Below are positions 17,893-46,030 of a DNA stretch of 64,000 nt, piece after piece (position 1 is the stretch's first letter; each line of letters starts with the position of its first letter). Made by a program: the position numbers and the translations under genes. The stretch is from Henckelia pumila. Lineage: Eukaryota; Streptophyta; Magnoliopsida; Lamiales; Gesneriaceae. Where the stretch lies: positions 129,302,375 through 129,366,374 of the forward strand of contig NC_133121.1 in assembly GCF_033568475.1 (NCBI RefSeq), in the 5' to 3' direction. Under the pieces are notes generated by a model. That model was not told the DNA's origin and searched no databases. It was given only the letters and a program-made list of their open reading frames with translations.

Positions 17893-18117
17893 TTTTTTTT
17901 TTTCGAGAAACAAACACTAAATATTATTAAACCAAATCCGAAATAATTACATTGAAAATCAAAGCAGGAGATGGTGTCACCCATCTCTCCTGATCAGTCA
18001 AAGAAACAGCTTCCTTTGTCAAGGCATGAGCTGCCTGGTTCGCTGATCTAAACGCAAAAGTAAAAAAACAATACGAAAAATCCTTCGAAAGGATTATACA
18101 ATCTTTAATAGAAAATG
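17893..18117 (-). pseudogene. 5'-truncated LINE, RNase H end and poly(A)
   Basis: On the minus strand the frame carries a LINE-type RNase H C-terminus (CIILSKDFSYCFFTFAFRSA, then NQAAHALTKEA). It reaches a stop at 17929-17927, has a very short 3' UTR and an A-run (17903-17893 complemented). The 5' end abuts gypsy protease sequence near 18117, so only about 220 bp of the LINE is present, as expected for a truncated insertion. The junction is in frame with the protease by chance. Confidence 0.7.
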
Positions 18118-19546
18118 GAACCACTACTCGCCTATTAACTTTCACCTCCGCACAGTCATTGAACCATTGCAACCTATATGGTTGAGGATGCTTCAAGAGA
18201 GGCAACCCCAATTTTTCCACAAGTTCGTAACTCGCTACATTGGTGCAACTACCCCCCATCAATAATAAGACTGCACACCTTTTCATTCACAAAATAACGA
18301 TTATGAAAAAGATTTTCCCTCTGACTCTCTTCTTCCTCTCTAGGTTGTGCATGTAACACTCTCCTACTCACCAATAACTCACCAACAATAGCCCCAAACC
18401 CATCCTCATCATCAGGATCTACCAACGCATGCATACCATCACAATTTTCCTCATCATTTTCAGACTCCACATCACCACAAGCATTAATAATCATCAATTT
18501 CTTATTTGGGTATTGACTAGAAATATGTCCAATACCTTGACACCTAAAACATTTAATATCTCTAGATCGAGTATTAGAAGTTTTAGATGTACCTTTAACC
18601 ACTTTCTTGGTGCCTCTGATTTGGTGTCATATTTTGGTTTGGACACCGGCTTGTTGTCCTCCCGTTTTGCAATGGTCAAACGCCAAGAAGTCGACGATCC
18701 TCCACCTAAAGTAGATCGTCCAGTTCCTCTTCTCTTGAGCTGCTGCTCCACCTTCATGGTCGTCTGCACCATTTCATCCAAATCTAAACAGTGACGAAGC
18801 TCTACTTGGTCTTGGATTTCTCTATTTAAACCGCACAAAATTCGAGCCATTGTGGTTTTATTATCCTCCTCGATGTTGGTCCGGATCATCGTGGTCTCCA
18901 ACTCCTTCTAGTAATCCTCCACGCTCCTTGGACCCTACCTCAAAGTCTGTAGATGCCTGTACATTTCACGATAATAATGGTTAGGAACAAAATGCTTCTT
19001 CATGACACGCTTCATTTCTTCCCACGTCTCGATAGGCGGCTCTCCACACCTCCTTCTAGTGGTCACTAATTGATCCCACCAGATTAATGCATAATCTAAA
19101 AAATCAACCACGGTCAACCTCACTTTCTTAAGATCAGAATAGTGATGGCAATCAAATACAAACTCCACACGCTGCTCCCATTCCAGATACGCCTCCGGAT
19201 CAGATTTCCCATGAAACGCTGGAATTTTCATCTTAATGCTACTAATATTCCCATCCTTAATGCCCTCCGTATATTTTCCACGTACCGCTTCTCGCCTATG
19301 TGTACCCCCATGTACTCTTCTCTCCCCATCCCAATTCTCATCAAAACTCTCCTCATCGTCTTCAAAATCATTCCCCTTCCTATTTTTTTTTTCACTACCA
19401 CTATTCTCCTCTAATTTACTCATCCTCTCATGAAGAGGTTCTATCTCCGATCTCATTACCCTAGTCAACTGTCCCATCAACGCCTCCATTTGAACCTTGG
19501 AAATTCCTTGGTTCACACTTTCACTAACATCTTTATTATGATTCAT
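18117..19546 (-). pseudogene. Ty3/gypsy (element G1) gag and start of protease, broken
   Basis: The gag ATG is at 19546. A gag domain follows ([20 protein letters not shown], then [20 protein letters not shown]) until stops near 18936, where TAG replaces expected sense codons. A second frame (about 18901-18600) carries the gag C-terminal part. A third (18602-18249) carries a zinc knuckle CFRCQGIGH-SSQY, whose fourth ligand is Tyr instead of Cys. The protease region (GGSCTNVASYELVEKLGL) runs to about 18117, where the element is cut by the LINE fragment. Several frame changes and in-frame stops make it non-functional. Confidence 0.85.
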
Positions 19547-20026
19547 GGTACCTGCAAGAAAATCGTTAGTAATAAATTTCCTCACAAAAATTCTCACAAT
19601 TCACTCCAAACGAATCACTCAATCACTTTTTTTCACTCAAATTTGTGGTATGGCTTTGCTTCGTAGAGTAAATGATCAAACCTTCAAGTTTAAAAACTTT
19701 TAGACGCTTGAAAATTTGACTAACAAAGATTGACAAATCGAGCAAGGAATTTTATGGACGAATTGACTTTGACTCGCGCCCATGGATGAACAAAGGCAAC
19801 GGAATTGGCCACAAGCTACTTTTTTCACTTTTTTTTCTCAGATTTTCGGTCCCACTTTTTTTACCGATTTTTTTTTTGAATTTATAACTTGTAGCACAAG
19901 ACACGAGACTTGGATAACAAGTTTGAAAAAAACGACACAGAAATTTGATATGAGATAGATGACGAACGAAGAATACGAAGAACGGATCTAGATGTAGATA
20001 GGATACTTACTTGATTCAAAACCTTG

Positions 20027-20040
20027 ACTTTGATACCAAA
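20027..20040 (-). other. Primer binding site of gypsy element G1
   Basis: On the minus strand, TTTGGTATCAAAG directly follows the LTR end TTCATATCA. It resembles the initiator-methionine tRNA complement TGGTATCAGAGC with a substitution. The plus-strand relative has TTTGGCATCAAAG at the same place (43790). Confidence 0.6.
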
Positions 20041-21012
20041 TGATATGAATCTAGATGTGTAAGATTAGCAAACACGATTACAAATTTGAATCGCACCCTC
20101 TAATCAATAAACAAAAGATCCAAAGTTTTGCCCAATCTTTGAAACAAGTAAAATTGATAGGATTTTGGATTTCCACCTTTAATCGATGGTACGATTAACA
20201 ACAGAAATCACAACAATTGAAACCAAAGAAAACCTTCAGATAACTTGTATCTGACAATCTTCAGTGAGAAATCAATCGACAAACACTTCCAAGTAATTAA
20301 ACTGAGAAAGTTTGATTTGAAAAGCCAAAGCAAAGCTTTGAATAAAATTCTTGAGATAATTTCAATAATTTGCGTATAAACTGAATCTGAATTTTTTATT
20401 AATGAAAATAACAAAAGTATTTATAGTTTACAATCAAAAATAAAATATAACACAAATTATACCTAAAGATATCAAAGATATCATCTAGAAAGTTTTCTAG
20501 TATAATTAGAACTCTAAAAAATAGGAAAAAAACATCAAAATATCAAAATCCCGCACACACACACAACACACTGAAGTGTGTGTAAAATTCCAAAAAATCT
20601 CGCTCGTTCGAGCGGACGGAATTCTCGCTTGAGCGAGGAAAACGCTGCCTCACTCTTTCTTCTGCGCTTGCTCGAGCAGACGTGTATGCTCGCTCGAGCG
20701 AGAAACACTCTGCCCGAGAAATCTTAAGGCGCTCGCTCGAGCAAACGAATGTTGCGCTCGAGCGAGATGTCTTCTGCCCCAATTGTGTTTTCTTCACTTT
20801 TTTCAACTTCTAACACTTCAAGGACGCATAGACAACTCCCAAATTGATCTTCAATGTTTCCAACACCCTCTCGATAGTTTAGCATCAACTTTTGAAGTGC
20901 CTTCTTAAATTTGGTAGCTCGGCTCCTCATTTTTTGCCCTCGTGGCAACTCCAATGGATCTCAAACTCCCCTTGCCACTCAATTCACATGCGAGCTATCC
21001 ATGATCACATCA
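20041..21012 (-). repeat. Complete 5' LTR of gypsy element G1
   Basis: It begins TGATATGAAT and ends CACATCA as read on the plus strand, so the termini are TG..CA, with the PBS outside its left end. Length is 972 bp. It contains a cluster of palindromic CTCGCTCGAGCGAG-type motifs (about 20598-20772). The 5-bp target repeat GATGG follows at 21013-21017, and gag of a plus-strand gypsy element continues directly after it. Confidence 0.85.
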
Positions 21013-23440
21013 GATGGTGCAGACAGCCATGAAAGTGGAGCAACAGCTCAGGCGGAGAGGAGCTGCTCGAGATACATCCGGTGGAGGGTTGTCTACTTTT
21101 TGGCATCCGAACGTTGCAAAACGAGAGTATAGCAAACCGGTGTCCAAACCAAAATCTGACACCAAACTGGAGGCGCCAAATAAAGGTAAATCTGAGACTT
21201 CTTCTAGTCGTACTAGAGATATCAAGTGTTTTAGATGTCAAGGTATTGGCCACTTTGCTAGCCAATACCCAAATAAAAAGTTAATGATTATTAATGCTTG
21301 TGGTGATATTGAGTCTGAAAGTGAGGAGGTTGAGAATTATGATGAAATTCCTTAGTTGAAGGATCCTGATGATGAGGGATATGGTGTGGTGATTGGTGAG
21401 ATGTTGTTGACTAGGAGAGTTTTAAATACACAACCTAAGGAGGATGAAGATAGTCAATGAGAAAATCTCTTTCATACTCGTTGTTTTGTGAATGGGAAGG
21501 TGTGCAGTCTCATTACTGATGGTGGGAGTTGTACGAATGTAGCTTGTTGTGAGTTAGTGGAGAAATTGGGGTTGCTTACTTTAAACTATCCCCAGCCATA
21601 TCAGTTGCAGTGGTTTAATGACTGTGCGGAGGTTAAGGTTACCAAACAAGTAGCAGTTTCATTTTATATTGGTAATTATGTTGATGAGGTAGCATGTGAT
21701 GTGGTACCTATGCATGCTTGTCATATCTTTTTAGGTAGACCGTGGCAGTTTGATAGGAGGGTAGTGCATGATGGGTTTGGAAATAAGTATTCTTTTACTA
21801 TGAAAAAAGAGTCAATTGTACTATTACACATGTCTCCAAAGCAAGTGTTGGAGGATCAAATGAAAAGAAAAAAAAATAGAAGAGGCAAAAAAAAAGAGCG
21901 ATAAAAAAAGTGAGATGGCCTTAGAAAAGAAAAGTGAGAAAAAAAGATGAAAAGAAAAGTGAAAGAAAAGAGGCTGAAAAAAAGATGTATATGGTCCAAA
22001 AAAGTGAGTTGAGAGATGTTTTGCATTCTCATGTTCCACTTGTGTTGATCTTTTATAAGGAGTTTCTCCTAAACACAAGTGATATAGCCGAAGATCTTCC
22101 GAGCGTTGTTAATTACATCTCTTTTGCAAGAGTTCGAGGATTTGTTTCCGGAGGAGCTACCTCAGGAGTTGCCACCTTTGAGAGGGATTGAGCATCAGAT
22201 CGACTTCGTGCCAGGGAGTGTGTTGCCGAACCGTCCAGCTTATAGGAGCAATCCAGATGAGACAAAGGAACTGCAAAAACAGGTAACTGAGCTTTTTGAT
22301 AAAGGATTTGTGTGAGAGTCGATGTCACCAAGTGCAGTGCCTGTATTGTTAGTCCCTAAGAAAAAAGATGAATCTTGGCGTATGTGTGTGGATTGTAGAG
22401 CTATAAATAACATTACCATCAAGTATAGACATCCTATTCCTAGACTAGATGATATGTTAGATGAATTTTATGGCTCTAGCATTTTTAACAAGATTGATTT
22501 TAAGAGTGGTTATCATCAGATTAGTATGAAAGAAGGAGATGAGTGGAAAACTGCGTTAAAAAAAGTATGGTTTGTATGAATGGATGGTTATGCCTTTTGG
22601 TTTGACTAATGCACTAGTACTTTTATGCATTTAATGAATCATGTTTTGCGTGCATATATTGAAAAATTTATGGTTGTCTACGTTGATGATATATCGGTAT
22701 ATAGCACGAACTTGGATGATCATGTGGAACATTTGAGAGTTGATCTTTCAATATTATCAAGCAAAAAATAATTAATGCTTCTTTATTAGTTTTGCCTGAC
22801 TTTTCTAACACGTTTGAAATTGAATGTGATTATTGAGGTGTAGGGATCAGAGGAGTGTTGATGCAAGGAGGGAAGCCAGTGGCATATTTCAGTGAAAAGT
22901 TGAATGGAGCAGTGTTTATCCAACATATGATAAGGAGTTTTATGCTCTAGCTAGTGCGAGTGCTTGAGACGTGGCATCATTACTTGAGGCCAAAGGAGTT
23001 CGTGATTCATATGGATCATGAATCTTTGAAGCATCTCAAAGGACAACAAAAGTTGAATAAGAGACATACAAAGTGGGTAGCATCTGTGAAAACTTTTCCT
23101 TACGTCATCAAGTATAAGCAAGGCAAAATGTGGTAGCGGATGCATTGTCCCGAAGGTACGTTCTCTTAACTACATTAGATGCTAAGTTTTTGGATTTTGA
23201 GCATGTAAAAGAATTGTATGGTAGTGATAGTGAATTTGGTGTAATGTATAAGTCATGTATGCATAGTCCTCAAGGAAGATTTTATTTGCATGATGGCTAC
23301 TTGTTTAAGGAAAATGGATTGTGCATTCCTAAAAATTCAATTAGGGAGTTACTTGTTAGAGAATCGCATGGTGGTGGTTTAATGGGTTATCTTTTTATTG
23401 AGAAACTGATGTGTTTGAAGAGATAAAAATGTTGGAAGAA
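21013..23440 (+). pseudogene. Ty3/gypsy (element G2) gag-pol right half, broken
   Basis: Starting at the GATGG junction, this reads gag C-terminus and zinc knuckle (21014-21355, knuckle again ending in Tyr, then a TAG), and the protease region (21488-21904). After low-complexity lysine-rich sequence comes reverse transcriptase (about 22130-22740) with [33 protein letters not shown] and VVYVDD; a stop splits it at 22313 and a frameshift at about 22560. About 200 bp of RT are missing near 22750. RNase H follows (MQGGKPVAYFSEKLN), then [27 protein letters not shown] and the start of integrase (HGGGLMG), which stops at 23424. No intact protein. Confidence 0.85.
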
Positions 23441-23456
23441 TTAAAATGAAGTGGTC

Positions 23457-25022
23457 ATGCATGTGGGTCTAGAATTTCTTTATTTATTTGGGATATTCTT
23501 GGATTTATAGTGTTAATAATTTAGTGATTGATTTTGTGCGTGAGTTTTACGTACATGGAGTTTCTGAATCTTGCATTCTTTAATTATCTAAACTTGATAT
23601 AGATATTTATTCAAATATCTTATAAAACTAGGAAACAACACGTACGTTGCACATGAAAACGGTTCAGTGATTGAGTACATATATGTAATTTATAATATAA
23701 TTTAAATTAAATATGTGAAAAAGGAGCAAAAATTAAACTTATTCGAAATGTACAATAATTAAATAAAATTCAAAATGTATTCACCATTTCTGTTCTTCAA
23801 AAGAGACATAAGCAATTAATAATGTGTACCATGTGTTACTACTCTTGTTGGAAGCACAATTATTTTTCCAATTTCATTTTCTCTTGTTTCTCCGCTAACA
23901 ATACTATCAATATGCCCTGATCAAAACTCAAATGTCATTTCTGTCTGATTTCTATGTACGATAATAATCCAACTTAGTTTTTTCAAGTTTTATATACAAA
24001 TCTATTAGAGGTGATTACGATACGGTTTGAGCAATATTTTCCTAAAATTCAAACCAAATTGCTATGCACGGTTCGGTTTCACAGATAGTTATAATTGTGG
24101 TTTTTCGTGTAAATGTAGATATGCAGTTTGGGATACTTTCGGGAGGTTTTGCGATTTTTTAATAAAGAATAATGATCATCAATAGACAAAAATACAGTAT
24201 GAATACAATAACACCAAAAAACATAAGTTAATATAAAAATATTGAATGAACTTAGAATATTTTTTGTTCAGTACGACATGAAAACATTAAAAAAAAAATT
24301 CAAATAAAAAATGCAATCGAAAATTCCAAATCATTAAAAAATAAATGACATAAGACAATAGTCAAGTTTTTAATCATGGAATCTCATAATTGAAATTGAA
24401 TGTTCCGTCAAAAATTACTTTCGAGTTTCAAGGTATAATACTTGCAAAAAAAGGAAAGAAATTCTCAGAGAAATATATAAAAGTTTTCTCATATTTTTTC
24501 AACATGCAAGATTTAAAAAAAAATAGTATAAGAAAGGAAAAACAAAATTGTTTTAAAAAATAAAATTGTAGAGAAACAAAAAATTTATGAAATCGTATTT
24601 AGAATATTAATCGATACATTGAATTACCTCTTTTCCAATAGACTTTAAGTCTTGACAAAATTTCCAGGAGAATACAGACTGAAGGTTGAGAATTAATAAA
24701 AAACTTGAGACAAGAGAATAAAATTAACTAATGGATTTAAGAGACTGCCGGTGAGGAAATACATTGAAATTAGGTTTTATGATTTAATGTAGTAGTTAAT
24801 TTATGTTAAATATTTATTTATAACCTATAGAAAGATTTTACAAAGAAAAGATGATCTATTTGTTTCCAAACCCCCTAAATTTGCATGATTTAATTTGAGG
24901 ATAACATATCTGATGAAATAAAGTCAATTTTTAATTCCTATGAAATATTATACAGTCTCTTTTTCTGTATATAAGTTTAGAATTTCTATCATAATTATGG
25001 TATTATAATTAGATACAAACAT
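23457..25022. repeat. Duplicated segment, copy 1 (with 848-bp extra block and empty gypsy site)
   Basis: 23457-23580 matches 36886-37009, and 24429-25022 matches 37010-37601, at high identity. The block 23581-24428 is absent from copy 2. Copy 1 continues past 25022 as ACAAACAT/GGTAATTT, whereas copy 2 carries the gypsy LTR at exactly this point. Copy 1 is therefore the unoccupied form of the insertion site. No gene is visible in it. Confidence 0.85.
23628..23657 (-). mobile_element. Helitron-like 3' terminus
   Basis: Read on the minus strand, a short palindromic hairpin around CAACGTACGTGTTG is followed by TTTCCTAG and then T. This matches the Helitron 3' signature (hairpin, CTRR, insertion before T). 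It falls inside the 848-bp block missing from the duplicate. I could not place a matching 5' TC end. Confidence 0.35.
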
Positions 25023-25112
25023 GGTAATTTTTAATTTGAATCACTCTATTGAATTTAAAATAAATTATATAAACAACGTGCTTGTCTCGAGCAAAGAAAT
25101 TAACTAAATCTA

Positions 25113-25215
25113 CTTAAATAAATTAGAAAACCTACCCGCAATCAGCGGAAATCGAACCTGAGACCTCTTGAACTCATGGCCTCGGTCTTAGCCACTAGGT
25201 TAAAACCTCATCGGT
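25113..25215 (-). mobile_element. tRNA-derived SINE-like sequence
   Basis: On the minus strand a pol III A box (TGGCTAAGACCG, 25194-25183) and B box (GGTTCGATTTC, 25158-25148) have normal tRNA-like spacing. The flanking bases do not form an acceptor stem, so a SINE head is more likely than a tRNA gene. An AT-rich tail follows. Confidence 0.5.
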
Positions 25216-25364
25216 TGCATCATATATTGTTGTTATAGTCTCCATGCATATAAAATTGTCGATGTCATATAATCTGTCAGCACATTATCCAATATGACAT
25301 CATCTTATATATCATTATCCCTATGCACTAAGACTTGAGTTAAAAAGCATAATAATAATAATAA

Positions 25365-25678
25365 GGAAAAATTGCTTTTTTGGTCCGTATGTTTGTCACT
25401 TTGCGATTTCACTCCTTTATATTTTCAGATTTCAGTTTTAGTTCGCTAACTTTATTTTTTTTGGCAATTTTAGTCTTTTTTTTCGACGTGGCGCTGATGT
25501 GACACCAATTCAATGATGATGTGGAGCTGACGTGTACAGTGCCACGTAAACATTTTTGAATAAAAAGGACCGAAATTACCAAAAATCAGAACATGCAGGA
25601 CTAAAACTAAAATGTGAAAATATAGAGGACCAAAATCGCAAAGTGACAAACATATAGGACTAAATTTGTAATTTTCCC
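25365..25678. mobile_element. MULE-type MITE, relative of 6491-6788
   Basis: A foldback of 314 bp with ends GGAAAAATTGCTTTTTTGGTCC and the complement on the right, ending in TTTTCCC. Both flanks read TAATAATAA, giving a possible 9-bp duplication, although the site is a TAA microsatellite. The terminus and size match the element in GT90 intron 2. Confidence 0.7.

Positions 25679-25727
<49 letters not shown>
25679..25727. repeat. (TAA)n microsatellite
   Basis: About 16 TAA units. A shorter run lies on the other side of the MITE at 25351-25364, suggesting the MITE inserted into a TAA tract. Confidence 0.95.
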
Positions 25728-25736
<9 letters not shown>

Positions 25737-26385
25737 GCAATGTATCATCGTAAATCTAAATGTTTATCTTATCATAATCCTAAATGCACAAGATAAGAAA
25801 AAAATATGATAAAACTGATATTTTTTGTTCGCTAACTCCAAAACTAAAACAAATGAAATGAAACAGTGAACAATTTTATTTATTATTAATTTTTTGTCTC
25901 AAAAACATTTGTCAGAATAAATAAAAAAATGATAGATCAGAATAATTATAAAAATAATAACAAAGGGTTTTGAACTATATTACATACAAGAACAAGTATT
26001 CACCTAAATTATAACATCTAATATAAAATATTTTTGCCGAAAAAAAATAAGAGGGAAATTCTTTCTTTAAATTAATGAAAGTCTACAAAATCATGCAAAG
26101 AATTTGATTATTAATATTTATGTCACCAACGGAAAAATGTACCATCAAATGTCACATAAACTATTTAAGTAAATGTACAAGAGGCATTGAAACGAAATAT
26201 GAAAATCGGAAATGTACCTCTTCTTTGCTATTTGCCAAGTATAGAATCAATTGAGTGGAAGGATTTTTTTTCATCACTCCCATGAATAATCGCATCGTAC
26301 TTTGACCAACACCGGCGTTTTCCATGACATTCATCCTATTGATTAATTCATTACTATCTATCAAATAATGTATCGACTTCTTATC

Positions 26386-26386
<1 letters not shown>

Positions 26387-26416
<30 letters not shown>
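26387..26416. repeat. (AAT)n microsatellite
   Basis: Ten ATA/AAT units. Confidence 0.95.
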
Positions 26417-26417
<1 letters not shown>

Positions 26418-26439
26418 TTTTCTTTCATGGGTAATTTCT

Positions 26440-26670
26440 AGGGATGTAAACGAATCTAACGGTTCGCGAGTTATTCGGAGCTCGACTCGGTAAAAAGCTC
26501 GATCGAGTTCGTTTGTTAAGTTTATCGAGCCGAGCTTGATCTTGATTTCAAGCTCGATAATTTTCATGAGCCAAGATTGAGCTTAAGAATGTTCGGCTCG
26601 TGAGCTCGCGAACATGTTTGTTAATAGGCTCAAGAACTCGAGCTCGGGCTCGTCTCGTTTAAGAAGCTCC
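26440..26670. mobile_element. Fragment of a GAGCTCG-rich non-autonomous DNA transposon
   Basis: The segment begins AGGGATGTAAACGAATC and contains many interspersed GAGCTCG, GCTCGAT and GTTCGCGAG motifs on both strands. I associate this pattern with widespread plant hAT-like elements that start near GGGRTGTAAACGA. The right terminus is not visible. The class is an inference. Confidence 0.4.
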
Positions 26671-27636
26671 GAACATCCAGAAACAATCTACTATGTTATT
26701 TACTGCTTTATACATTCACAAACCAGTAGAACCAAAATGCATTCCAATCTCTTAGTTGACCTTTTTCCGCACTAGTATAATTGTTGGTCAACCTTCGAGA
26801 TCCAGGAGAAATGAGAGTTTAGTGGCTCACACTATTGAACTCACTGGCAGCAAGGAGCTACTGCCCCTACAATCAGAATCAGAACAGTAGTAACTCACTA
26901 CTTGTCAACCCAGCTGTAGTAGCAATTCGATCCAGACACTAATGTATATGCATGTGATATGAAACATTTATAACTTTCTAACACCAACTGAAATTTACAA
27001 AAACATGAAAAATATCATAAAATTTTATTTTATCAAATTTATAATTTACTCATAATAAAGCAATTATTTCAAAACAACCATCATATTAAAGCATAAATTA
27101 TAAATTTGTTTAATCACGGTTATTTTAAATAATATCATTTTGTAAAAATGTTGTTGCGTATATGTATAATTGTATATTGGCGAAACAACTAGCTTATTAA
27201 AAACAAAAAGTAAATTTTGTTTAATCACAAAAAAAACTATTTTAATTTTTAAAAAAATTCAATCGTATTTTTATTTATATTATTAAATTTAAGGGTAAAA
27301 TAGTTAATCTTTTTTTGAATCTTCAATATTATCTTTATCTATAATTTTAAATTCAATAATATCTTTATTTGTATTTATGCAATATCTAATATTTTTGGAA
27401 AGAAACTTTAGACGGGAAAATGATAGTTTTTTTTAGTATATATATTTATATATATATATATATATGTAGATTTAATAGATATAGTAAAAATAAATAAATT
27501 ATGTATCTTTGAGTTATTTCTAATATTTTTTGATAACATTATCCAAAAGACATCCCATAATTTATAAGTTTTTAGTAAGATAGATGCACAAAAATCGAAG
27601 AAGCAAGTATGAGATATAATAATGCATATTTTTTTA

Positions 27637-27683
<47 letters not shown>

Positions 27684-28110
27684 AGTGGATGACACCAAAA
27701 TCGAAGAGTTGTAATGATGATGCTATTATACATCTATTTTTTGAAATATTTAAATTATATGTTTTTATTTTTTAATTAATTTTTTATTTTCATAAATGCA
27801 TAATCTATTTGAAATAAGTATTTTGAGCGGAAAAACTTGAAGTTTTATTTTTTGGAAGGCTTGATTTGTTATATATATATATATTGCTGACATAAGATAT
27901 AACAAGTCAATAATTTTTGATGTCACATCAATATTTTATAACTCCATATTAGCTCTCCGAAAAAATAATATTGAAATCTAGAAAAAAAAAATTAAATATA
28001 ATGTACCAAAAGTAATATCTAAAACTTAGTCGATCAAAACCCAATATACTGAAAGTTAGTGGACTAAAAATATTATTTGGCCTTCAAAATATTATTATGA
28101 TTGGAATAAA
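26670..28110. other. AT-rich intergenic DNA, no gene seen
   Basis: No reading frame of note. Contains (TA)n runs near 27442-27466 and 27640-27679. Confidence 0.6.
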
Positions 28111-28111
28111 T

Positions 28112-28560
28112 CACTACAAGAAAAGGGTGATAGACATCATCCATAAGACAATATTTTTATTAAAAACTGTTGTAAATTAAGTATTAACAACGGTTTTCAC
28201 AAAAACCATTGTCTATGAGCGCTTATCTATACTATATTATTAAACTTGAAACATTTTAGTGTCATGATGCATCATCAAAATGTCAAATTTACCATAATTA
28301 ATTTGATATTCTTTAAATAGCTATTTAATTACGAAAATTTTATATTGTTTTGTTGGATATTTATATATGAAAATATCATTTTTTTTTATTTTACCCTTTT
28401 TTCTTTTTATTTTCGTTAAAAAATAGTTATACAAACATGCAATGCGTGCATCCAAGAAATAATCTGAATTAAAGATAACCGTTGTTTTTTTCGTGTTTTT
28501 TTTTAAAAATTATAGACAACTGTTTTTAAGAAACCGTTGTCCATGTATTTTTCCTCCCGA
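28112..28560. mobile_element. CACTA (En/Spm-like) terminus with subterminal repeats, truncated
   Basis: The sequence CACTACAAGAAAAGG at 28112 is the canonical plant CACTA terminus. Subterminal repeats follow in both orientations: ACAACGGTTTT (about 28189), AACCGTTGTTTT (about 28479) and AAACCGTTGTCC (about 28531). No matching right-hand TTTTCTTGTAGTG is present, so one end is lost. A Helitron-like insert sits inside. Confidence 0.65.
28225..28456 (+). mobile_element. Short Helitron-like insert
   Basis: It begins TCTATACTATATTATTAAAC after an A, the common plant Helitron 5' signature. It ends shortly after a hairpin ATGCAATGCGTGCAT (28437-28451), followed by CCAAG, a decayed form of CTAG. Only about 232 bp, non-coding. 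Confidence 0.45.
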
Positions 28561-29277: not shown

Positions 29278-29446
29278 AACACTCTTGTGAGACGGTTTCA
29301 TCCGTGAGACGGGTCAATCCTACCCTTATTTATAATAATAATAATAATAATAATTTTGACATAAAATATAGTATTTTTTAATGGATAACTCATATAAAAT
29401 ACCTGTCTCAAAAAAATGACCCTTGAAACCGTCTCATAGAAGTTTT
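29278..29446. mobile_element. MITE of the GTGAGACGG family
   Basis: The inverted ends are ACTCTTGTGAGACGGTTTC and, read inward from the right, ACTTCTATGAGACGGTTTC. The core is AT-rich with a (TAA)n run. About 169 bp. Confidence 0.65.
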
Positions 29447-29503
29447 TATCTCTTTTTTTTAGCTAACGACATAAATCAAATGAGAAAAAAAATGAAACAT
29501 TAA

Positions 29504-35875: not shown

Positions 35876-36498
35876 AATCACAACAAATTAGTTTTTCTTG
35901 CAGTAAAAAAGTATCGAAACTGCCTAGACAAAATCAAATTACACTACATAATCCAAGTTTAAGCGGAAAACAAGTATGTATGCATCAAGATTCAAACAAT
36001 TGAAACCCCGTGATTCATAACTGAATCTATATCAAAAGTAAAAATCCCACAAGTTCTTGACTACCTGCACGTTCAAAAATCTGAAACTCGGAAACATGTA
36101 ATCCAAACCTTCAACAAGAAGAGTAATGTAAACGGAAATTAAGATGATTTGAACCAGAACCATCAAAAGGGTCAGTAATCGAAATCCCCTGTACAGAAGG
36201 CCATTAATGATCGTAGACTATTTTTGATCAAAATCGTAGAATTAATACGCACAAAATCTTGGCAGGGAGAACTGAAACGAGAGTCGGAAGAAAACCAAGT
36301 GGAGAGAACAAACAAGAAAGGCCTCTCTGCTTTCTCGCTGTTCAAGAAGATGATGAAAACAACTAGCTAGGATTTCCTCGAGAGAGAGATATGTATATTA
36401 ATATATATAGCATGCGATTATATATCTATGTAGAAAGGGAGAAAAAAAATATCTATTGTGTATTTTAATTTTTTTAAAAATATCATTGAGATTTCAAA

Positions 36499-36501
<3 letters not shown>

Positions 36502-36552
<51 letters not shown>
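36502..36552. repeat. (TA)n microsatellite
   Basis: About 25 TA units. Confidence 0.95.
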
Positions 36553-36554
<2 letters not shown>

Positions 36555-36885
36555 TTGTAATATCCCTTCCATTTTTTTTTTAAAAAAAAAGAAAATTGGT
36601 GTAATTTGAGAAGAAAATAGACGGACCTATACGTCAGTTTGATATTTGAATAAATGACAAAGTTTCTTTAAAATTGGGAGGATTGATTGTGTAGATGAAG
36701 TATTTTAAAATTTATTATTGTTACCATAAAAGATAAATAATATTTCATCCATTTTTTTTTGGGATTAATTCTACTCAAGATCCAAGCAATATTGTAGAGC
36801 TCAAGTCAAAATTGATGAATTATTTGGGTCAAAATTAAGCTTGAATACAATCTGTAACAAATTTTTAGACAGAGTAAAAGAATGG

Positions 36886-37601
36886 ATGCATGTGGGTCTT
36901 GAATTCCTTTATTTATTTGGGATATTCTTGGATTTACAGTGTTAATAATTTAGTGATTGATTTTGTGCGTGAGTTTTACGTACATGGAGTTTCTGAATCT
37001 TGCATTCTTCAAGGTATAATACTTGCAAAAAAAAACGAAAGAAATTCTCAAAGAAATGTATAAAAATTTCTTCATATTTTTTCAACATGCAAGATTTTAA
37101 AAAATAGTATAAGAAAGGAAAAACAAAACTGTTTTAAAAAATAAAATTGTAGAAAAACAAAAATTTTATGAAGTCGTATTTAGAATATTAATCGATACAT
37201 TGAATTACATCTTTTCCAATAGATTAGAAGTCTTGACAAAATTTTCAGGAGAATATAGATTGAAGGTTGAGAATGAAAAAAAAAAATTTGAGACAAGAGA
37301 ATAAAATTAACTATGGAATTAAGAGACGGCCGGTGAGGGAATACACTGAAATTAGGTTTTATGATTTTATCTACTAGTTAATTTAGGTTAAATATTTATT
37401 TATAACCTATAGAAAGATTTACAAAGTAAGGATGATTTTTTTGTTTCCAAATTCCCTAAATTTGCATGATTTAATTTGAGGATAACATATCTGATCATAT
37501 AAAGTCAATTTTAATTCCTATGACATATTATATAGTCTTTTTTCTGTACATAAATTTCGAATTTCTATCATAATTATGGTATTATAATTAGATACAGACA
37601 T
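36886..37601. repeat. Duplicated segment, copy 2 (occupied gypsy site)
   Basis: Matches 23457-23580 joined to 24429-25022. It ends GACAT at 37597-37601 and the gypsy LTR begins immediately at 37602. It lacks the 848-bp block present in copy 1. Confidence 0.85.
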
Positions 37602-38286
37602 TGATGCGATCGTGGACAGCTCGCATGCGGATCGTATTGCGAAGAATGTGAGAGATCCTTTAAAGTTGCCAGTCCGACCAGTTACATGGAGGCGAGCTAA
37701 ACAGTTCAAGGAAGTTTTTCAAAATATGTTGATTAATTATCAAGAGAGCGATGGAATATTCGGAGTTTGTTTCGGGGAAAGCTGTAATGTACTGGAAGTG
37801 CACGGAAGCCTGGAGGAAATAACGGAATCGTCAAGCAAAAATTCGGGTAGGAATTGTCGCGCTCCAGCGGATGATTTACCGCTCGAGTGCAAGAACCAAA
37901 AACAGTAGCATCCAGTTTCGGGCGCGCTCGAGCGAGCACTATTCTCGCTCCAGCGCAAAATCAATTCCAGTGATCAGGGCCAATTCTTGGCGCGCTCGAG
38001 AAAGAAATATTCGCGCTTCAGCGCGAGATCGCCGATTGCACACATTTGGAGGTGTTGTGTGTGTGTGTGTGGGATTTTCTAATATTTTATTATGTTACTT
38101 ATTTTAAGTGTTTTGGTTTATTTGGAAACTTTTCCATGGTATCTTGTGATATCTTTATCATTATTTTATATCTTTTTGGGATGTAATATAAATAGAACAA
38201 TTACATTCATTATTAAAAACAGATTGATTTGATTATTGATTTTATCATTCTTATAAAATTCTCTCAAGAATTTTATTGAAGCTTTG
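37602..38286 (+). repeat. 5' LTR of plus-strand gypsy element G2, first part
   Basis: It begins TGATGCGATCGTGGACAGC, homologous to the reverse complement of the 3' part of 20041-21012. It includes several CTCGAGCG palindromes and a GTGTGTGTGTGTG run (38054-38070). It is interrupted at 38286 by the element at 38287-43474 and resumes at 43475. Confidence 0.85.
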
Positions 38287-39717
38287 TGACTCCTTAATTC
38301 GGTTATCTAGCAAGTGCACTAGGTCAAGTTATAATAAGTAGACAATGAGTCCAAGTATCGATCCCACAGAGACTGTAGTCAATTCTCAAGATTTAATTAT
38401 TTTACTTAATCTAGAAAAAAATAATATAGAAGGATGCAATGAATTAAATAAAAATTTAATTACTAAAAAATAATAATAATTAAAATAGCTGAAGGATAAA
38501 TTTAATTAAATTGAGACAACCAAGACACACGAATGTACCAAACAAATTGTGCAAACAAGTGGAAAATCTAAGATTCATATTTAATCTTAATATACGGCGA
38601 ATTCTCCTAATTTATTTAACAGTCTATTTCTAGAACAGTTAAACCTATTCAAATATTGACGGATTAATTTTCATAATTCTAATCAAACTCAAATACATTA
38701 GAAATTATGAGAATTCATTTTTTTTTTATCTAAAACCGCATACGGAAACCGAATACTATTTCAATTCGGTTTAAACATATGTAAATTATTGGAACGATCG
38801 AAATGAATTCCTAATCTGTCGACTCAGAATCAATTAACATGCAAGTAAATAATTGATCAGATTATTCACAAGAACAAAATATAAATCCAAAAAACAATAA
38901 TCTAGATAATAATCCAAAAATCCCAAATCAAAATCCACATGTTCGACATAAAATTGTTCAGCCCAATCTCGTGGTCTTGGTTGAAAGAAAAACTAATCAA
39001 TAATTGAAAACAATAATTCAAAAATAAAAAGAAGAAGAAGAAACTAGAATGGAGTTTTCTTCAAATCTTCAAGCCTCCTAGTCGTCGTCTCCTGTGTCTC
39101 TGCGTTCACTCCCCCTCTTTCACATCTGAATATCTTCTATTTATATGTCTTTGAAATCCCAAGAAATAAAGCCCGAAAAGTAAAGGATTTTAATTCCCAA
39201 AAATTCCAATTTCTGAGTCCTCGCGAGGCCTCGCTCCAGCGGAAAAAAGTTGCAGCTCGAGCGAGGTGTTTTATGTCCCAAAGATGTGTTTTTCCAGCCC
39301 AAGTCTCGCTCGAGCGGCAAAAATTTACCTCTCGAGCGAGCAACTTTCTGTCCAGCGCGCAACGATTTTAAAAAATTCATATCTGGAGTTCTAGCCGTCG
39401 GATCGAGCCGAAATTTGGACAGCAACTTCAAAACATCTTGAATTTAATTTGAACTGTGGAGATCGGATTTGTATCTCTCTATCATTAAAAATATATTTTT
39501 GACCATTGATGCTCCGTAATTCATTATTGCGGCTCTTCTCTTCCTCCAAAATCATGATTTCTTCACAAGTTCCTACAAAATCAACCCGGAGAATGAAATA
39601 CACACGCATGAAATAAATTATAAATAAAACATGTAAAAACACACATGAAACAATATGAATGCATGCCAAATAAACCTGAAAATAACATAAAATAATACAC
39701 ACAAAATACACTTATCA
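38287..39717 (-). repeat. 3' LTR of the LARD-like element
   Basis: Starts TGACTCCTTAATTCGG and ends CACTTATCA on the plus strand. It contains CTCGCTCGAGCGG-type palindromes at about 39226-39345, a motif also found in the unrelated gypsy LTR. Confidence 0.85.
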
Positions 39718-42047
39718 ACACCTCCATACTTAAACCTTGCTCGCCCTCGAGCAAGACATATGACAAACAACCACAAAACACAAACAAAAGTAGGAATGAT
39801 TCATGGTAAGTGTCAGCCTCTGAGAAGTTCTATTGTCAACTAAAAAACATGAATGCTCTCAACCATTCATAATACACCTTCGGTTTAGCGTGAACGTGTT
39901 TGTGCGATGTCGTTCCAGTTACATGCAACTTAGACAGAATCCGTTTCAAGACTGCTTAGCGACTTATGATAAATCAGTGGAAGTTTCACTCTCAAGTGTC
40001 TATTTCTTCTAACGACCTTTTAACAAAACACACCTCCCTTGAGATAATTAATTACACACCTTCGGATTTTACACCCTATTTTGCTTTAGCCTCAATAATT
40101 ACCCACAAATTTAGCTATAACTGTGATAGGATTCGAATTTCAATCCCCTCGTCTATAGCCCGGATGGAGCATCAACCCCATTTCATCCGCAAACTTAGCC
40201 TTGGACGTGGTAATTAGTATTTTAATTCCTCGTCCATGAACCGGATGGAGTTGAGTTTTTCAAAACTAAATTTTTTAAAAAATTTGGTGCGCCCAAGATC
40301 ATAAGTGCAAAGTTAGAAACTCATCAAAATTCACAGAACACAGTTAAGATCCACAAAACACCTATTGTCGTGCAATGATCAAACAGACAGAAACTTCATC
40401 AAATATTTCGCTACAATTCACTGGTCTAACATGAGTGCTTAAAAATATTCATGGTTCAACCTACATTTTCTCATGTCAAGTCAAGAGCAAAATTTTCACA
40501 AAATTCATAACTTCATATCATCATGAGCTCCCATTCATCATCCTACTCAACACACATGCAGAAAATTACTAAAACAAATATAACACAATCAAACACGACA
40601 CGAACTATATGCAATCAAACTAAAATATTACGAATGCAACACAAACATGACAAACACTGAAATAAACTAGTCTACCCCCATACTTATCCAAAGCATTGCC
40701 CTAAATGCTATGGAAACAATGAACAGAATGCAAAAACGAACAAACAAATGCAAGACGAACAAAAATACAATGAAAACAAAAATAACACTCCCCTGGTTTT
40801 AGATTCATCCACTTTCTCCGGCTGTAGAACTGCAACAACAACTTCACTTAACGGGGAAACTTACTGCACATATAAAGGAGACGGGTAAGGCGTTGAATTG
40901 AAAAAGATAATAAAAATAAAAATAAAAAGAACATTAAAAATAAAGGAAAAAAAAACAATGGGTTGCTTCTCAGTCAGCTCTAAATTTATAGTCTCTAGCC
41001 CGACTTTCCAATAGCAGCCATCAAATAGCGGCTGCCGCCCATAGTAAGAATCATACGACTCTATGTATAGGTCTTTATTACCTACGCCCTCAAGCTTGGC
41101 GTGATATTGACATGGGAACTCGTCGGTCCAGCAATACTCGGTATGAACTGATTATTTTGGAAGAAGACTCCGAATCTAGGCTGAAGCTCTTGGAGGATGT
41201 AATATTTTGGAATTGGCAATAATGTCAAGAACGGAACTTCTAATGGTGTACATGTAAAGACCATTGACAAGGTCAAATCTTTCGCCTTGTATATTTCTTC
41301 CTCCACTTTCACTTTTGGCTCCTCGTAGCATGAAGATTGCTCAAAAAATATTTCCTCATGATCTGGCGCAATTACTTCATTCTCTTGAAATATCTCAAAA
41401 AAAGGTTCTATAAAATGCTCAATCTGCTCATCCGAAAAACTCAAAGAGTTGATGCGGCTTTCTAAAACTGATTTGTCTCTGCCTGTTTTCTCACAATGTT
41501 CTCCAACTGAGCCACATGATCCTCAAAACACCCTATACACTCTTCTTGATGCTCAAATGGTTGGTTCGCAAAATTTGTGGAGTTGAATTCTGGAGGATAT
41601 TGGTGACTCCAACCCTGCAGTGAAGGATCATAATGCCAATGGTAGTCGAAATCTGTCATATCATTTAACAAGTGCATAGCACTGTTATAATCTCTTCTAA
41701 ACAAGTGACTGCCAGTTGCCAAAGCTCCATAATCTCCCCAAATTCTTGTTGTCGCATCCAAACCACCATAAAAAAAATAAGAACAAGAGTGTAGTTTGAA
41801 AAATCATGATATCGACAATTGTTTGCCAAATCATTGAATCTCCCCCAAGCAACATAAAATAGTTCTGAGTATTGTTGGCCAAACCTTGTGAACTCTTATA
41901 GATGATCCATCTCCAAGTACCTCACAAGTAAAAAAAATATAAATAAAATTAAAAATTAAACAAATGCAAGAAAAAAAATGTCAAGTCTCAAGAAAATAAT
42001 CTATTCTAATATTAACCAAACAGTCCCCGGCAACGGCGCCAAAAACT
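39718..42047 (-). pseudogene. Interior of the LARD-like element with gag-like remnants
   Basis: On the minus strand the frame 41761-41462 is rich in aromatic residues and reads FDYHWHYDPSLQGWSHQYPP, then an amphipathic end. The frame 41444-41082 is acidic (HEEIFFEQSSCYEEPKVKVE). Neither has catalytic motifs. They look like relics of coding sequence in Athila/Tat-type elements, but I cannot match a domain. The rest (39718-41080) is non-coding. Confidence 0.45.
42024..42041 (-). other. Primer binding site of the LARD-like element
   Basis: TGGCGCCGTTGCCGGGGA on the minus strand, separated by six bases from the LTR end GGCAGTCA. Its position fixes the orientation of the element. Confidence 0.75.
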
Positions 42048-43474
42048 TGACTGCCTAATTCGTTTATCTAGCAAGTGCACTAGGTCAAGTATAGTAAGTG
42101 GACAATGAGTCCAAGTATCGATCTCACAGAGACTGTAGTCAATTCTTAAGATTTAATTATTTTACTTAATCTAGACAAAAATAATAAAGAAGGATGCAAT
42201 AAATTAAATAAAAATTTAATTACTAAAAAATAATAAGAATTAAAATAGGTGAAAGATAAATTTAATTAAATTGAGACAACCAAGACACACGAAGGTACCA
42301 AACAAATTGTGCAAACAAGTGGCAAATCTGAGATTCATATTTAATCTTAAATTACGGCGAATTCTCCTAATTTATTTAACAGTCTATTTCTAGAACAATT
42401 AAACCTATTCAAGTATTGATGGATTAATTTTCATAATTCTAATCAAACTCAAATGCATTAGAAATTATGAAAAATCAGTTTTTACCTAAAACCGCATACT
42501 GAAACCGAATACTTTTTCTAGTCGGTTTAACCATATGTCAATTATTGGAGCGATCGAAATCAATTCCTAATCTATCGACTCAGAATAAATTAACATGCAA
42601 GTAAATAATTGATCAGATTATTCACAAGAACAAAATATAAATAAAAAAACAATAATCTAGATAATAATCCAAAAATCCCAAATCAAAATCCAAATGTTCG
42701 ACATAAAATTGTTCAGCCCAATCTCGTGGTCTTGGTTGAAAGAAAAACTAATCAATAATTGAAAATAATAATTCAAAAATAAAAAGAAAAAGAAGAAGAA
42801 ACTAGAATGGAGTGTTCTTCAAATCTTCAAGCCTCCTAGTCGTCGTCTCCTGTGTCTCTGCGTTCACTCCCCCTCTTTCACATCTCAATATCTTCTATTT
42901 ATATGTCTTTGAAAGCCCAAGAAATAAAGCCCGAAAAGTAAAGGATTTTAATTCCCGAAAATTCCAATTTCGGAGTCCTCGCGAGGCCTCGCTCCAGCGG
43001 CAAAAAGTTGCAGCTCGAGCGAGGTGTTTTATGTCCCAAAAATGTATTTTTCCAGCCCAAGTCTCGCTCGAGCGGCAAAAAGTTACCGCTCGAGCGAGCA
43101 ACTTTCTTTTCAGCGCGCAGCAATTTTAAAAAATTCATATCTGAAGTTTTAGCTGTCGGATCGAGCCGAAATTTGGACAGCAGCTTCAAAACATATTGAA
43201 TTTAATTTGAACTATGGAGATCGGATTTGTATCTCTATATCATTAAAAATATATTTTTGACCATTGCTGTTCCGTAATTCATTATTGCGGCTCTTCTCTT
43301 GCTCCAAAATCATGATTTCTTCACAAATTCCTACAAAATCAACCCGGAGAATGAAATACACACGCATGAAATAAATTATAAATAAAACATGTAAAAACAC
43401 ACATGAAACAATATGAATGCATGACAAATAAACCTGAAAATAACACAAAATAATGCACACAAAATGCACTTATC
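42048..43474 (-). repeat. 5' LTR of the LARD-like element
   Basis: Starts TGACTGCCTAATTCG on the plus strand. The last bases (CACTTATCT) have lost the final CA relative to the other LTR. Carries the same CTCGAGCGAG motifs (about 42975-43105). Confidence 0.85.
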
Positions 43475-43789
43475 TCTTGGGCTTTGTTTAAATCAAACTT
43501 ATCAAAGTTATTAACTTTGTGGCATTTGTCAATTTTTCTTCATTGAATATTGTTAGATACAAGTTATCTGAAGGTCTCATTGAATTCAATTGTTTCGTAA
43601 TTTTCATTGTTAATCGTTCATCGATTAAAGGTTAAAATTAAATTCTATCTTTTATTATTTTTTTCCGTGAGATTTTACTTGTCTAAAAAATATCGAAAAC
43701 ATCAATTGAGTCTTGTGTTTAATTGATCTGAGGGCACGAATTGGTTTATTTTTGTGTTTTCTTTTCATTAATCAACCAGGTTCATATCA
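43475..43789 (+). repeat. 5' LTR of plus-strand gypsy element G2, second part
   Basis: The continuation of 37602-38286 after the nested insertion, ending TTCATATCA. The PBS TTTGGCATCAAAG starts at 43790. Together the two parts give an LTR of about 1.0 kb, comparable to the 972-bp copy at 20041. Confidence 0.85.
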
Positions 43790-44344
43790 TTTGGCATCAA
43801 AGACAAGATTTTTTGAGACAAGTAAGTATTGTTTCAACAATCTTTGTTCTTATCTGTTCTTCGTTCTTCGTTGTCTTTCTTCATTCGTCATTTAAATTTA
43901 TTCTTCGTCAAGTATTTTTTGTTTCTATCTTGTTGCCCAAGTTTTGTGTCTTGTGCTACAAGTTATCTCAAAATTCAAAAAAAAAGAGAAAAAAAGAAAA
44001 TTATCGGTAAAAAAAAGGGAGACCAAAAATTAGCTTAAAAAAAATAGAGGAAGCAATAACTTGTGGCAAAATTCCAATCTTGTGTCTTAGTTCATACTTG
44101 GGTGCAAGTCAAGTTGATTATCCATAAGTCCTTGTTACTTGTTTTTGTTTGATCTTTCGTGAAATCAATTTTCTGTAGTAAACAAGTTTTTAACTTGAAG
44201 GTTTGATCTTTACTCCTCAAAGCAAAAACTACCATATATTTGAGTGAAAAAAAAAATAATTAGAGTGTTTGAGTGATTCGTTTAGAGTTATTTGTGAGAA
44301 TTTGTGTGAGGATGTTTAATTACTAACATCTACTTGCAGGTACA

Positions 44345-45139
44345 ATGAATCCTAATAAAGGAGTAGGGGAAAGTTCGAGCCAAGTAATTTCCAAAGCTCA
44401 AATGGAGGCGTTGTTGGGGCATATGACTAGGATGATGAGGTCAAAGTTGGAGCCGCTACATGAGCGGATGAGTAAATTGGAGGAGAGTAGTAGTAGTGGG
44501 AGTAAGAGTAAAAATAAGCATGTGATGGATGACTTTGATGGTGAGGGTGATGAAAGCCATGATGATGATTGGGAAAGGGAAATACGAGAGCATGGGTTGG
44601 TAGAAATAGGCAAAAAGCGGTGCGAGGTAGATATACTAAAGGGGGTAGAGAAGATGGGAATATTAGCAGTATCAAAATGAAAATTCCGTCGTTTCATGGG
44701 AAGTCTGATCCAGAGGCGTATCTAGAGTGGGAAACACGGATAGAGTTTGTGTTTGAATGTCATCGCTATTCTGATCTTAAGAAAGTGAAGTTGGCAGTGG
44801 TGGAGTTTGTGGATTACGCATTAATCTAGTGGGATCAACTTAGTACCACTAGGAGGAGGAGTGGTGAGCGGCCTATTGAGACATGGGATGAAATGAAGCG
44901 AGTCATGAGAAAGCGGTTTGTCCCTAACCACTACTATCGTGAGATGTTTAGGTGCTCGCAGGCTTTGAAACAGGGTTCTAGGAGCGTGGAGGATTATTTT
45001 AAGGAGTTGGAGACCATGATGATCCAGACCAATATTGAGGAAGATAGTGAGGCTACTATGGCATGTTTCATGTGTGGTTTGAATAGGGAGATTCAAGATC
45101 AAGTGGATCTTCGTCATTGTTTTGATCTTGATGAGATGG
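44345..45139 (+). pseudogene. Ty3/gypsy G2 gag, left part, broken
   Basis: The start codon follows CAGGTACA as in G1. The first frame runs to 44680, then a frameshift near 44570 moves the gag domain ([20 protein letters not shown]) to another frame, which stops at TAG 44827-44829 where tryptophan is expected. A third frame (44893-45147) contains [18 protein letters not shown] and ends LRHCFDLDEMV. Gag is then cut exactly at GATGG (45135-45139) by an inserted LTR. The missing continuation of this gag is what appears at 21018. Confidence 0.85.
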
Positions 45140-46030
45140 TGATATGAATTTAGATGTGTCAGATTAGCAAACACGATTACAAATTTGAATCACACCCTCT
45201 AATCAATAAACAAAAGATCCAAATTTTTTCCCAATATTTGAAACAAGTAAAATTGATAGGATTTTGGATTTTCACCTTTAATTGACGGTACGATTAACAA
45301 CAGAATCACAACAATTGAAACCAAAAAAAACCTTCAGATAACTTGTATCTGACAATCTTCGTAAGAAATCAATCGACAAACGCTTCTAAGTAATTAAACT
45401 GAGAAAGTTTGATTTGAAAAGCCAAAGCAAAGCTTTGAATAAAATTTTTGAGAGAATTTCAATAATTTGTGTATAAACTGAATCTGAATTTTTTATTAGT
45501 AAAAATAACAAAAGTGTTTATAGTTTACAATAAAAAAAATAAAATATAATGCAAAATATACCTAAATATATCAAAGATATCATCTAGAAAGTTTCCTAGT
45601 ATAATTAGAAATCTCAAAAATAGGAAAAAAAACATCAAAATATCAAAATCCCGCACACACACACAACATGCCAAAGTGTGTGTAAAATTCCAGAAATCTC
45701 GCTCGCTCGAGCAGACGGAATTCTCGCTCGAGCGAGGAAAGGCTGCCTCGCACTTTCTTTTGCGCTCGCTCGAGCGGACGTGTATGCTCGCTCGAGCGAG
45801 AAACACTCTGCCCAAGAAATCTTAAGGCGCTCGCTCGAGCGAACGAATGTTGCGCTCGGGCAAGATGTCTTCTGCCCCAATTGTATTTTCTTCACTATTT
45901 TCAACTTCTAACACTTCAAGGACGCATAGACAACTCCCAAATTGATCTTCAATGTTTCCAACACCCTCTCGATAGTTTAGCATCAACTTTTGAATTGCCT
46001 TCTTGAATTTGGGAGCTCGGCTCCTCATTT
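45140..46030 (-). repeat. G1-type gypsy LTR, interrupted on the right
   Basis: Colinear with 20041-20936 at high identity, starting TGATATGAAT right after GATGG. It ends at CTCCTCATTT, where the outer copia LTR begins; the remaining 75 or so bases of the LTR lie beyond the window. It has the same cluster of CTCGCTCGAGCGAG palindromes (45697-45865). Confidence 0.85.

Follow-up and report, generated by a model that had tools for sequence, protein, structure and literature searches.

One nested retrotransposon insertion with its two junctions in swapped order in Henckelia pumila, and a probable local duplication of its right half

We analysed a window of 64,000 nucleotides from contig NC_133121.1 (here C2) of Henckelia pumila, and positions above 64000 continue its numbering into the neighboring DNA. 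The locus is housed in a low-copy plus-strand segment, M (30315..36885), which matches C2:25691560-25697772 at 93% (locus P2, where the match extends to 37065) and C3:185136912-185142643 at 98% (locus P3, where the match, over stretch 185137001-185142000, rests on a genome search). M is followed by E1 (36886..37601, plus strand), the left flank of an inserted element, G2; E1 differs from its P3 counterpart by a K2P distance of 0.012. There are 12 open frames with 70 or more amino acids in 26046-37601; the two that were scanned contained no Pfam family. The 5' LTR of G2 opens with TGATGCG and lies on the plus strand in two parts: the first (37602..38286) is 62% identical to the reverse complement of the LTR of a second element, G1, at 20331-21012, and the other (43475..43789) is 67% identical to that of 45140-45427. 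Between them sits V (38287..43474), a nested LTR element whose LTRs (38287-39716 and 42048-43474) stand at K2P 0.049 and whose one scanned frame (41082-41519) showed no Pfam family. The left half of the G2 gag (43790..45139, plus strand) comes next, with 43476-45141 being 73% identical to the reverse complement of G1 18767-20330. Beyond it lies the left-hand LTR of G1 (45140..46030, minus strand), which is interrupted by X1 and resumes outside the window at 64657-64740. X1 is a young plus-strand copia element (46031..64000 in the window, ending at 64655) with an LTR K2P of 0.0016, flanking 5-mers equal at four of five positions (CATTT/GATTT), a copia-type gag in 49756-52230 and an RVT_2 domain in 61119-62777. 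Nested within it on the minus strand is another copia element, X2 (52094..61153; LTR K2P 0.0005; flanks ATATG/ATATG; RVT_2 in 53975-55891).

Upstream of M lies a plus-strand block, block A (18107..28074), which contains the G1 3' part, a G1 LTR, GATGG, the G2 gag end and pol, and then segments that we term E2, tail and F, together with the first 141 bases of the repeat R. The end of G1 pol and the G1 gag (18107..20040, minus strand), cut at 18107, are homologous to 81063-83006 (K2P 0.031), and 18935-19597 carries a Retrotrans_gag domain (PF03732, E 7.8e-09), which alone is no proof of a gypsy element; at an E threshold of 0.001 no Pfam family was found in the pieces 18249-18623 of G1 and 21461-21901 of G2. 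The G1 LTR (20041..21012, minus strand) leads through GATGG (21013..21017) to the end of the G2 gag and the G2 pol (21018..23405, plus strand, cut at about 23405), which is 79-81% identical to G1 pol 79031-81734. E2 (23457..25022, plus strand) is a G2-free copy of the left flank of G2, homologous to 36886-37601, to 86525-84960 and to sequence at P2 and P3, and it includes, at 23583-24427, an additional stretch of some 845 bp. The tail (25023..26064, plus strand) continues E2 as an unoccupied G2 site, and P2 matches it at 25023-25073, 25219-25364 and 25688-26064. F (26065..27933, plus strand) is the left neighbor of R (27934..29503, plus strand), a low-copy repeat. At P2 (C2:25.69 Mb), R lies on either side of M-E-tail (P2 2637-4480 and 15607-17440, 93.9% identical), and the counterpart of 27621-27933 lies left of the first R (P2 2332-2636). 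As R occurs twice at P2, we considered whether it might be the LTR of an outer element; its alignment ends read TTTTATAACTCC... and ...ATTATTAG, with no TG start or CA end, no matching flanking duplication was evident by eye, and we rejected the idea.

The two junctions of G1 with G2 lie in swapped order, as a preliminary description of the window had proposed. At the left junction, the plus-strand G2 gag (...FDLDEM) runs into GATGG at 45135-45139, and a minus-strand LTR starting TGATATGAAT begins at 45140. At the right junction, the LTR ends in CACATCA (21006-21012), GATGG follows at 21013-21017, and the gag continues in matching frame as MVQTAMKV. The 5-bp target-site duplication is identical on the two sides and the host gag frame is interrupted, as in a nested insertion, here putatively of one gypsy element in another. 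The LTRs at 20041-20933 and 45140-46031 are 93.6% identical.

We searched the genome for either junction, scoring 40 candidates in this as in every genome search. With 44900-45300 as the query for the left junction, 40 of 1833 candidates were scored; the window alone spanned it, the other 39 scored rows stopping or starting at query 241-242. The right junction was sought with 20900-21100, in which the LTR ends at position 113 of the query; among 40 scored of 705, the window alone covered both LTR and gag. One further row, C2:129391263-129391363 (window coordinates 88889-88989), matched query 99-199, that is, the LTR tip, GATGG and gag. The remaining 38 lay on the LTR side: 35 stopped at 111-114, the copy beyond the window (copy B, below) at 97, one on C4 at 116 and C3:146301369 at 121. 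We fetched this last row, which reaches 8 bases past the LTR end, and found the LTR followed by other DNA with no GATGG-gag, so it is not a second junction. Neither intact junction was found elsewhere among the candidates scored (40 of 705; 40 of 1833), and nor were the several further G1 copies in a G2 gag with GATGG that would have pointed to a dispersed nested unit. Furthermore, 34 substitutions relative to the majority of four G1-family LTRs are common to the four LTR copies found at the locus and at P3. Judged from sequence, both junctions are those of one insertion of minus-strand G1 into the related, plus-strand G2 rather than a chance likeness, in support of the single event first proposed.

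The apparent swap became plain once about 30 kb beyond the window was read. G1 resumes behind X1 at 64657 and runs to 83961: what remains of the interrupted LTR (64657-64740) is followed by the Y element (65634-78880), a local three-LTR tandem inside G1 with CGGTT on both sides, then by G1 pol and gag, assigned by homology (79031-83006), and by the other G1 LTR (83007-83961). The rest of the original right half occupies 83962-91555 as two inverted fragments, one of which carries the final 15 bases of the LTR along with GATGG and gag; a second G2 pol, inverted, lies at about 86580-88969. Block A aligns directly with 81063-83961 (96.4%) and in inverted orientation with 83962-88989 (96.5%), 89872-91555 (93.5%) and 88989-89457 (87%). 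By eye, the junctions of copy B share at most about one base; base 20997 is absent from B, as are some seven bases at 26039-26045. We prefer two in-place inversions over an excised circle put back as the origin of the fragments, because the block sits at its original place; three junctions are needed either way.

With a second right half at 81063-91555 in the assembly, 18107-28074 is very probably a second copy of the right half, duplicated locally, so that a copy of about 10 kb precedes the left half while the original lies just outside the window in two flipped pieces. The preliminary description had named the rest of the G1 LTR, G1 gag and a second G2 pol to the right of 64000 as the sign of a segmental duplication, and that sign, G1 pol included, is what we found. 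Its suggestion of complementary losses held in part: the first copy does lack its left part, but no such loss befell the second right half, which survives as two inverted pieces. K2P distances between A and B are 0.042 for the G1 LTR, 0.031 for G1 gag-pol, 0.031 for G2 pol, 0.019 and 0.028 for E, 0.027 for the tail and 0.026 for F; over these seven segments the range of 0.019-0.042 is a twofold spread, which we counted as similar divergence along the length. Copying appears to have followed the G1 insertion, given that the A-B LTR distance (0.042), like the other A-B values, is smaller than that between the left LTR and A (0.065) or B (0.074). In the LTR tree A and B group together (support 86), P3 joins them (75), and the left LTR falls outside. 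By LTR divergence, X1, X2 and Y are younger still, and their sites lie outside block A. In repeat-rich DNA, a target-site duplication split between two places serves as a direct marker of segmental duplication, and the order of its steps can be worked out in part from nested insertions that can be dated.

The related loci offer further points of reference. P3 is a partial, colinear third copy on contig C3, in unswapped order and without either junction, arranged as R, 6.3 kb of other DNA, M, E1, the start of a G2 LTR, other elements, G1 and E2. Its distance from the window is uneven, at 0.005-0.012 in the parts of M and E1 measured and 0.045-0.089 in the G1 LTR, gag-pol and E2. Its place in the history is indicated differently by two comparisons: in a tree of E pieces its E2 groups with P2 (support 90) and not with A and B, whereas over the 845-bp stretch P3 is nearer to A (0.056) and B (0.048) than to P2 (0.060).

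The two ends of block A differ. Its left end, at 18107, is abrupt, and this joint was found in A only; its right end merges seamlessly into F-R, the native left flank of the locus. As P2 has R on both sides, with 27621-27933 left of the first R, the single F-R at the right joint places this joint within a long stretch of homology shared by direct repeats on either side. Over 27685-28071, A and B differ by 2.6% and A and P2 by 5.3%. We propose that G1 inserted once in the G2 gag, at GATGG, within a low-copy segment R-M-E-tail, and that a stretch of about 10 kb, beginning in G1 pol (18107) and reaching R (28074) or beyond, would later have been duplicated locally and placed left of M. A broken end in F-R left of M may have paired with the homologous F-R right of the tail; about 10 kb would then have been copied leftward into G1, and the end joined to unrelated DNA at 18106. 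Break-induced replication could account for this, and so could strand-annealing repair, in each case finishing without homology. Because A keeps the unbroken order, the flipping of the two B fragments, by three breaks, would have occurred during or after copying. That a single repair event was the whole mechanism we rate at slightly under an even chance. The left F-R copy that it requires is not preserved. The fetched flanks left of 18107 and right of 91555 have no match to 27934-46030 except V (at least 70 bases, 75%), and therefore contain neither the rest of a first unit nor the remainder of R beyond 28074. In addition, the E2 copy predates the duplication and requires a separate event before it.

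Within the duplication reading, the same product would arise by unequal crossing-over between R repeats, giving a full tandem duplication, followed by separate deletion of the first copy up to 18107. A simple tandem duplication of 18107-28074 itself was rejected, as R and M, not G1 pol, come after 28074. Unequal crossing-over would give the same F-R joint and is consistent with R on both sides of the unit at P2. Unequal exchange makes multi-LTR tandem elements, and Y, with one pair of flanking 5-mers around three LTRs, points the same way. However, two events are required instead of one, complete head-to-tail units were not found, and no remnant of the first copy's left part was seen in the fetched left flank; we regard this course as almost as likely as the single repair event. 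A bolder proposal, that the duplication and the two-fragment inversion of B arose in one replication or repair crisis, with 10 kb copied to the broken left end and the donor fragments re-ligated flipped, we consider unlikely. If true, the locus would preserve, around one transposon insertion, a single record of local chromosome shattering that can be dated and read base by base, the target-site duplication serving as its marker.

Local duplication, our preferred reading, has also to be set against an assembly artefact, in which block A would be either a misjoin beside the real locus or an alternative haplotype kept in the assembly. Repeat-rich haplotypes may differ by as much as the roughly 3% between A and B, and the 18107 joint, where a misjoin may exist, was seen in A only. 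Nevertheless, block A enters F-R at the homologous place, B is scrambled in a way that a simple retained haplotype does not need, and the misjoin once suspected at 23.44 kb is contradicted by copy B, which has the identical G2-pol/E2 join; an artefact is thus very unlikely. Rearrangement of a single copy, a translocation or inversion swapping the halves without duplication, was also on the original list and would yield the swapped junctions seen within the window alone, but it is contradicted by the second set of right-half sequences at 81063-91555 and retains almost no probability. That G1 inserted twice, independently, at one GATGG site has nothing in its favor beyond that common site and is hardly credible given the lack of other spanning junctions among the scored candidates, the substitutions shared against the family, and flanking sequence that was duplicated together with the element.

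We regard the locus as ordinary remodelling of repeat-rich DNA that is unusually readable, and not as a new kind of system. A study of maize centromere 10 describes nested CR1 elements in a 22.7-kb segmental duplication whose copies are adjacent (PMC4806543). Like the present case, that duplication is local, starts within the coding region of a retrotransposon, takes in LTR elements both nested and partial and was dated by divergence. There the same five bases lie at the junction of the adjacent copies, pointing to alternative end-joining; in our case long homology underlies the right joint, the left one is abrupt, and the copies are separated, the second being scrambled. Repair-mediated duplication through capture of proximal chromosomal DNA is the subject of a report on, by its title, vertebrate genomes (PMC2671141). 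Existing DNA is duplicated there at an imperfectly repaired break, as in the single-event mechanism proposed above; at the present locus about 10 kb was copied, with homology at one joint. Tandem elements with several LTRs, such as LTR-IN-LTR-IN-LTR in the LTRtype paper (PMC5379124), differ in that the unit duplicated here has no bounding LTRs of its own, R being without a TG start and a CA end. They resemble the locus in having tandem units that share a repeat, and Y (65634-78880) has just such a structure.

Both junctions of G1, a minus-strand element inserted at GATGG in the gag of a related plus-strand element, G2, are present as the preliminary description gave them, with gag, GATGG and LTR on the left and LTR, GATGG and gag on the right. 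On the left, the G2 gag frame (...FDLDEM) runs to GATGG at 45135-45139, and the LTR start, TGATATGAAT, follows at 45140. On the right, the LTR end, CACATCA, lies at 21012 and is followed by GATGG (21013-21017) and by gag MVQTAMKV in matching frame. When the 885 Mb assembly, in which the window occupies C2:129302375-129366374, was searched with the left junction, only the window spanned it among the best 40 of 1833 candidates, with 39 of the 40 rows stopping or starting there. Among the best 40 of 705 candidates for the right junction, the window was the sole row with both LTR and gag, and C2:129391263-129391363 took in gag and the tip of the LTR. A row on the LTR side that extended 8 bases beyond the LTR end was rejected as a second junction, as other DNA comes next. 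These searches scored the best candidates only, among which a recent copy would be expected to rank high; they do not prove absence elsewhere.

We added 100 kb to each side of the window and compared the resulting 264 kb with itself (coordinates above 64000 continue the window numbering). In this comparison, block A (18107-28074), the right half within the window, has a partly inverted counterpart, block B, at 81063-91555. The match is direct between 18107-20996 and 81063-83961 (96.4%), and inverted between 20998-26038 and 88989-83962 (96.5%), 26034-27661 and 91555-89872 (93.5%), and 27646-28074 and 89457-88989 (87%, with microsatellite gaps). G1 extends from 45140 to 83961. As the preliminary description had anticipated for a duplication, its left LTR, which starts at 45140 and is split by the copia element X1 (46031-64655), resumes to the right of 64000, at 64657-64740, and right-half sequences follow. 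Its interior is split outside the window by Y (65634-78880), an LTR-interior-LTR-interior-LTR element with three LTRs and a single CGGTT pair, one on each side. The right LTR (83007-83961) stops 16 bases short of its end; the last 15 of those bases lie, along with GATGG and gag, at the distal end of the first inverted fragment, which places the true right half at 81-91.6 kb. Judged by sequence, block A is a further copy of this right half.

The inversions in B involved three breaks (in block A coordinates, after 20996, between 26038 and 26046, and after 28074), which released two fragments that were both re-ligated inverted. The B junctions show very little loss and share at most about one base. 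The swapped halves of the G1 insertion, a real observation that was correctly read, are explained by duplication plus local inversion.

G2 entered a host segment, M-E, at 37601/37602. E1 (36886-37601) has G2 directly behind it, and E2 (23457-25022) continues into the tail (25023-26064) without G2. A misjoin of block A where G2 pol meets E2 is rejected, since A and B alike carry this direct join, which must be older than the duplication. M also contains a large imperfect palindrome (33074-35107), with a similar one at a related place, P2 (C2:25.69 Mb).

At P2, which is inverted, the order is [27621-27933]-R-M-E-tail-R, the two copies of the low-copy repeat R being 93.9% identical. At P3 (C3:185.13-185.16 Mb), 6.3 kb of other DNA separates R from M; next come E1, the opening 64 bases of the G2 LTR, other elements, and then G1 pol-gag-LTR and E2. 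The G2 site, G1 and E2 thus stand in unswapped order, and neither G1 junction is retained. Between the G2 LTR start and G1 lies an array of three near-identical repeats (C3:185144114-185152007; 98.7-99.4%). P3 differs from the window by a K2P of 0.005-0.012 in the measured parts of M and E1, against 0.045-0.055 in G1 LTR and gag-pol and 0.048-0.089 in E2, and this unevenness suggests that the two contigs later exchanged sequence in the left part. Window 30755-37665 aligns with C3:185136912-185143832 at 98% and 96.5% in two alignments, an interchromosomal patch resembling the product of recent gene conversion or copying. In the E tree, E2 of P3 groups with P2 (support 90), apart from A and B, whereas an 845-bp stretch of P3 is nearest B (K2P 0.048) and A (0.056), which counts against a simple history. 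This stretch (about 845 bp, window 23583-24427) occurs in E2 of A, B and P3 and in P2, and E1 lacks it both in the window and at P3. The E2 starts at window 23457 and C3:185159674 coincide within one or two bases, with different left partners (G2 pol and G1 LTR, respectively), perhaps marking ATGCATG as a favored breakpoint.

Block A is seamless at its right end: up to 28071 it differs from B by 2.6%, and beyond that point it passes through R into M, as at P2. Given that 27621-27933-R adjoins M on the left at P2, and that the window has a single such stretch, the right joint lies inside homology. The left end is abrupt, A and B diverging immediately upstream of 18107. Among its best 40 of 3708 candidates, a genome search with the DNA to the left gave no match elsewhere for 14184-17550 or 17840-18106, and weak matches only for 17551-17839. 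One homologous and one non-homologous joint are expected if a broken end invaded a repeat, copied some kilobases and was then end-joined to other DNA. Unequal crossing-over plus a later deletion would also produce block A and account for both joints; we rate the two about equal and only narrowly prefer the single repair event. No remnant of a first unit was found in the fetched flank left of 18107, nor the remainder of R within 72 kb right of 91555.

The left G1 LTR differs from the right one by a K2P of 0.065 (A) or 0.074 (B). Between A and B, K2P is 0.042 for the LTR, 0.031 for both G1 gag-pol and G2 pol, 0.019 and 0.028 for E, 0.027 for the tail and 0.026 for F, the left neighbor of R, a twofold range between segments. 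As these values are below those between the left and right LTRs, the duplication postdates the insertion. In the LTR tree, A and B pair (support 86), P3 joins next (75) and the left LTR falls outside; four sites group A, B and P3, three group A and B, and three conflicting groupings have one site each, lending the grouping of these LTRs modest support. LTR K2P is 0.004-0.011 for Y, 0.049 for V (inside a G2 LTR), 0.0016 for X1 and 0.0005 for X2, an opposite-strand copia element within X1. The LTRs of X1 and X2 are closely related, and the two elements jointly form long near-perfect inverted repeats. At the rice substitution rate of 1.3e-8 per site and year, uncalibrated for this locus, the insertion would date to about 2.5-2.8 million years ago, the duplication to about 1 million and X1 to about 60 thousand.

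The locus is of a known kind, local duplications of nested retrotransposons being already known. A close parallel is the 22.7 kb local duplication in maize CEN10 that starts in a CR1 coding region (PMC4806543). Three-LTR elements are already catalogued (PMC5379124), and REANNOTATE treats segmental duplications that occur inside LTR elements, as well as the use of nested insertions for dating (PMC2672092).

Pfam families were found in four of the ten frames scanned: one frame of G1 had Retrotrans_gag, while two frames of X1 and one of X2 had domains of copia type. The putative gypsy label comes from the preliminary description, and for G2 it draws on 73-81% DNA similarity to G1. The G1 LTR also carries many near-palindromic GCTCGAGCGAGC-like motifs, at window 20590-20770 and 45690-45870.
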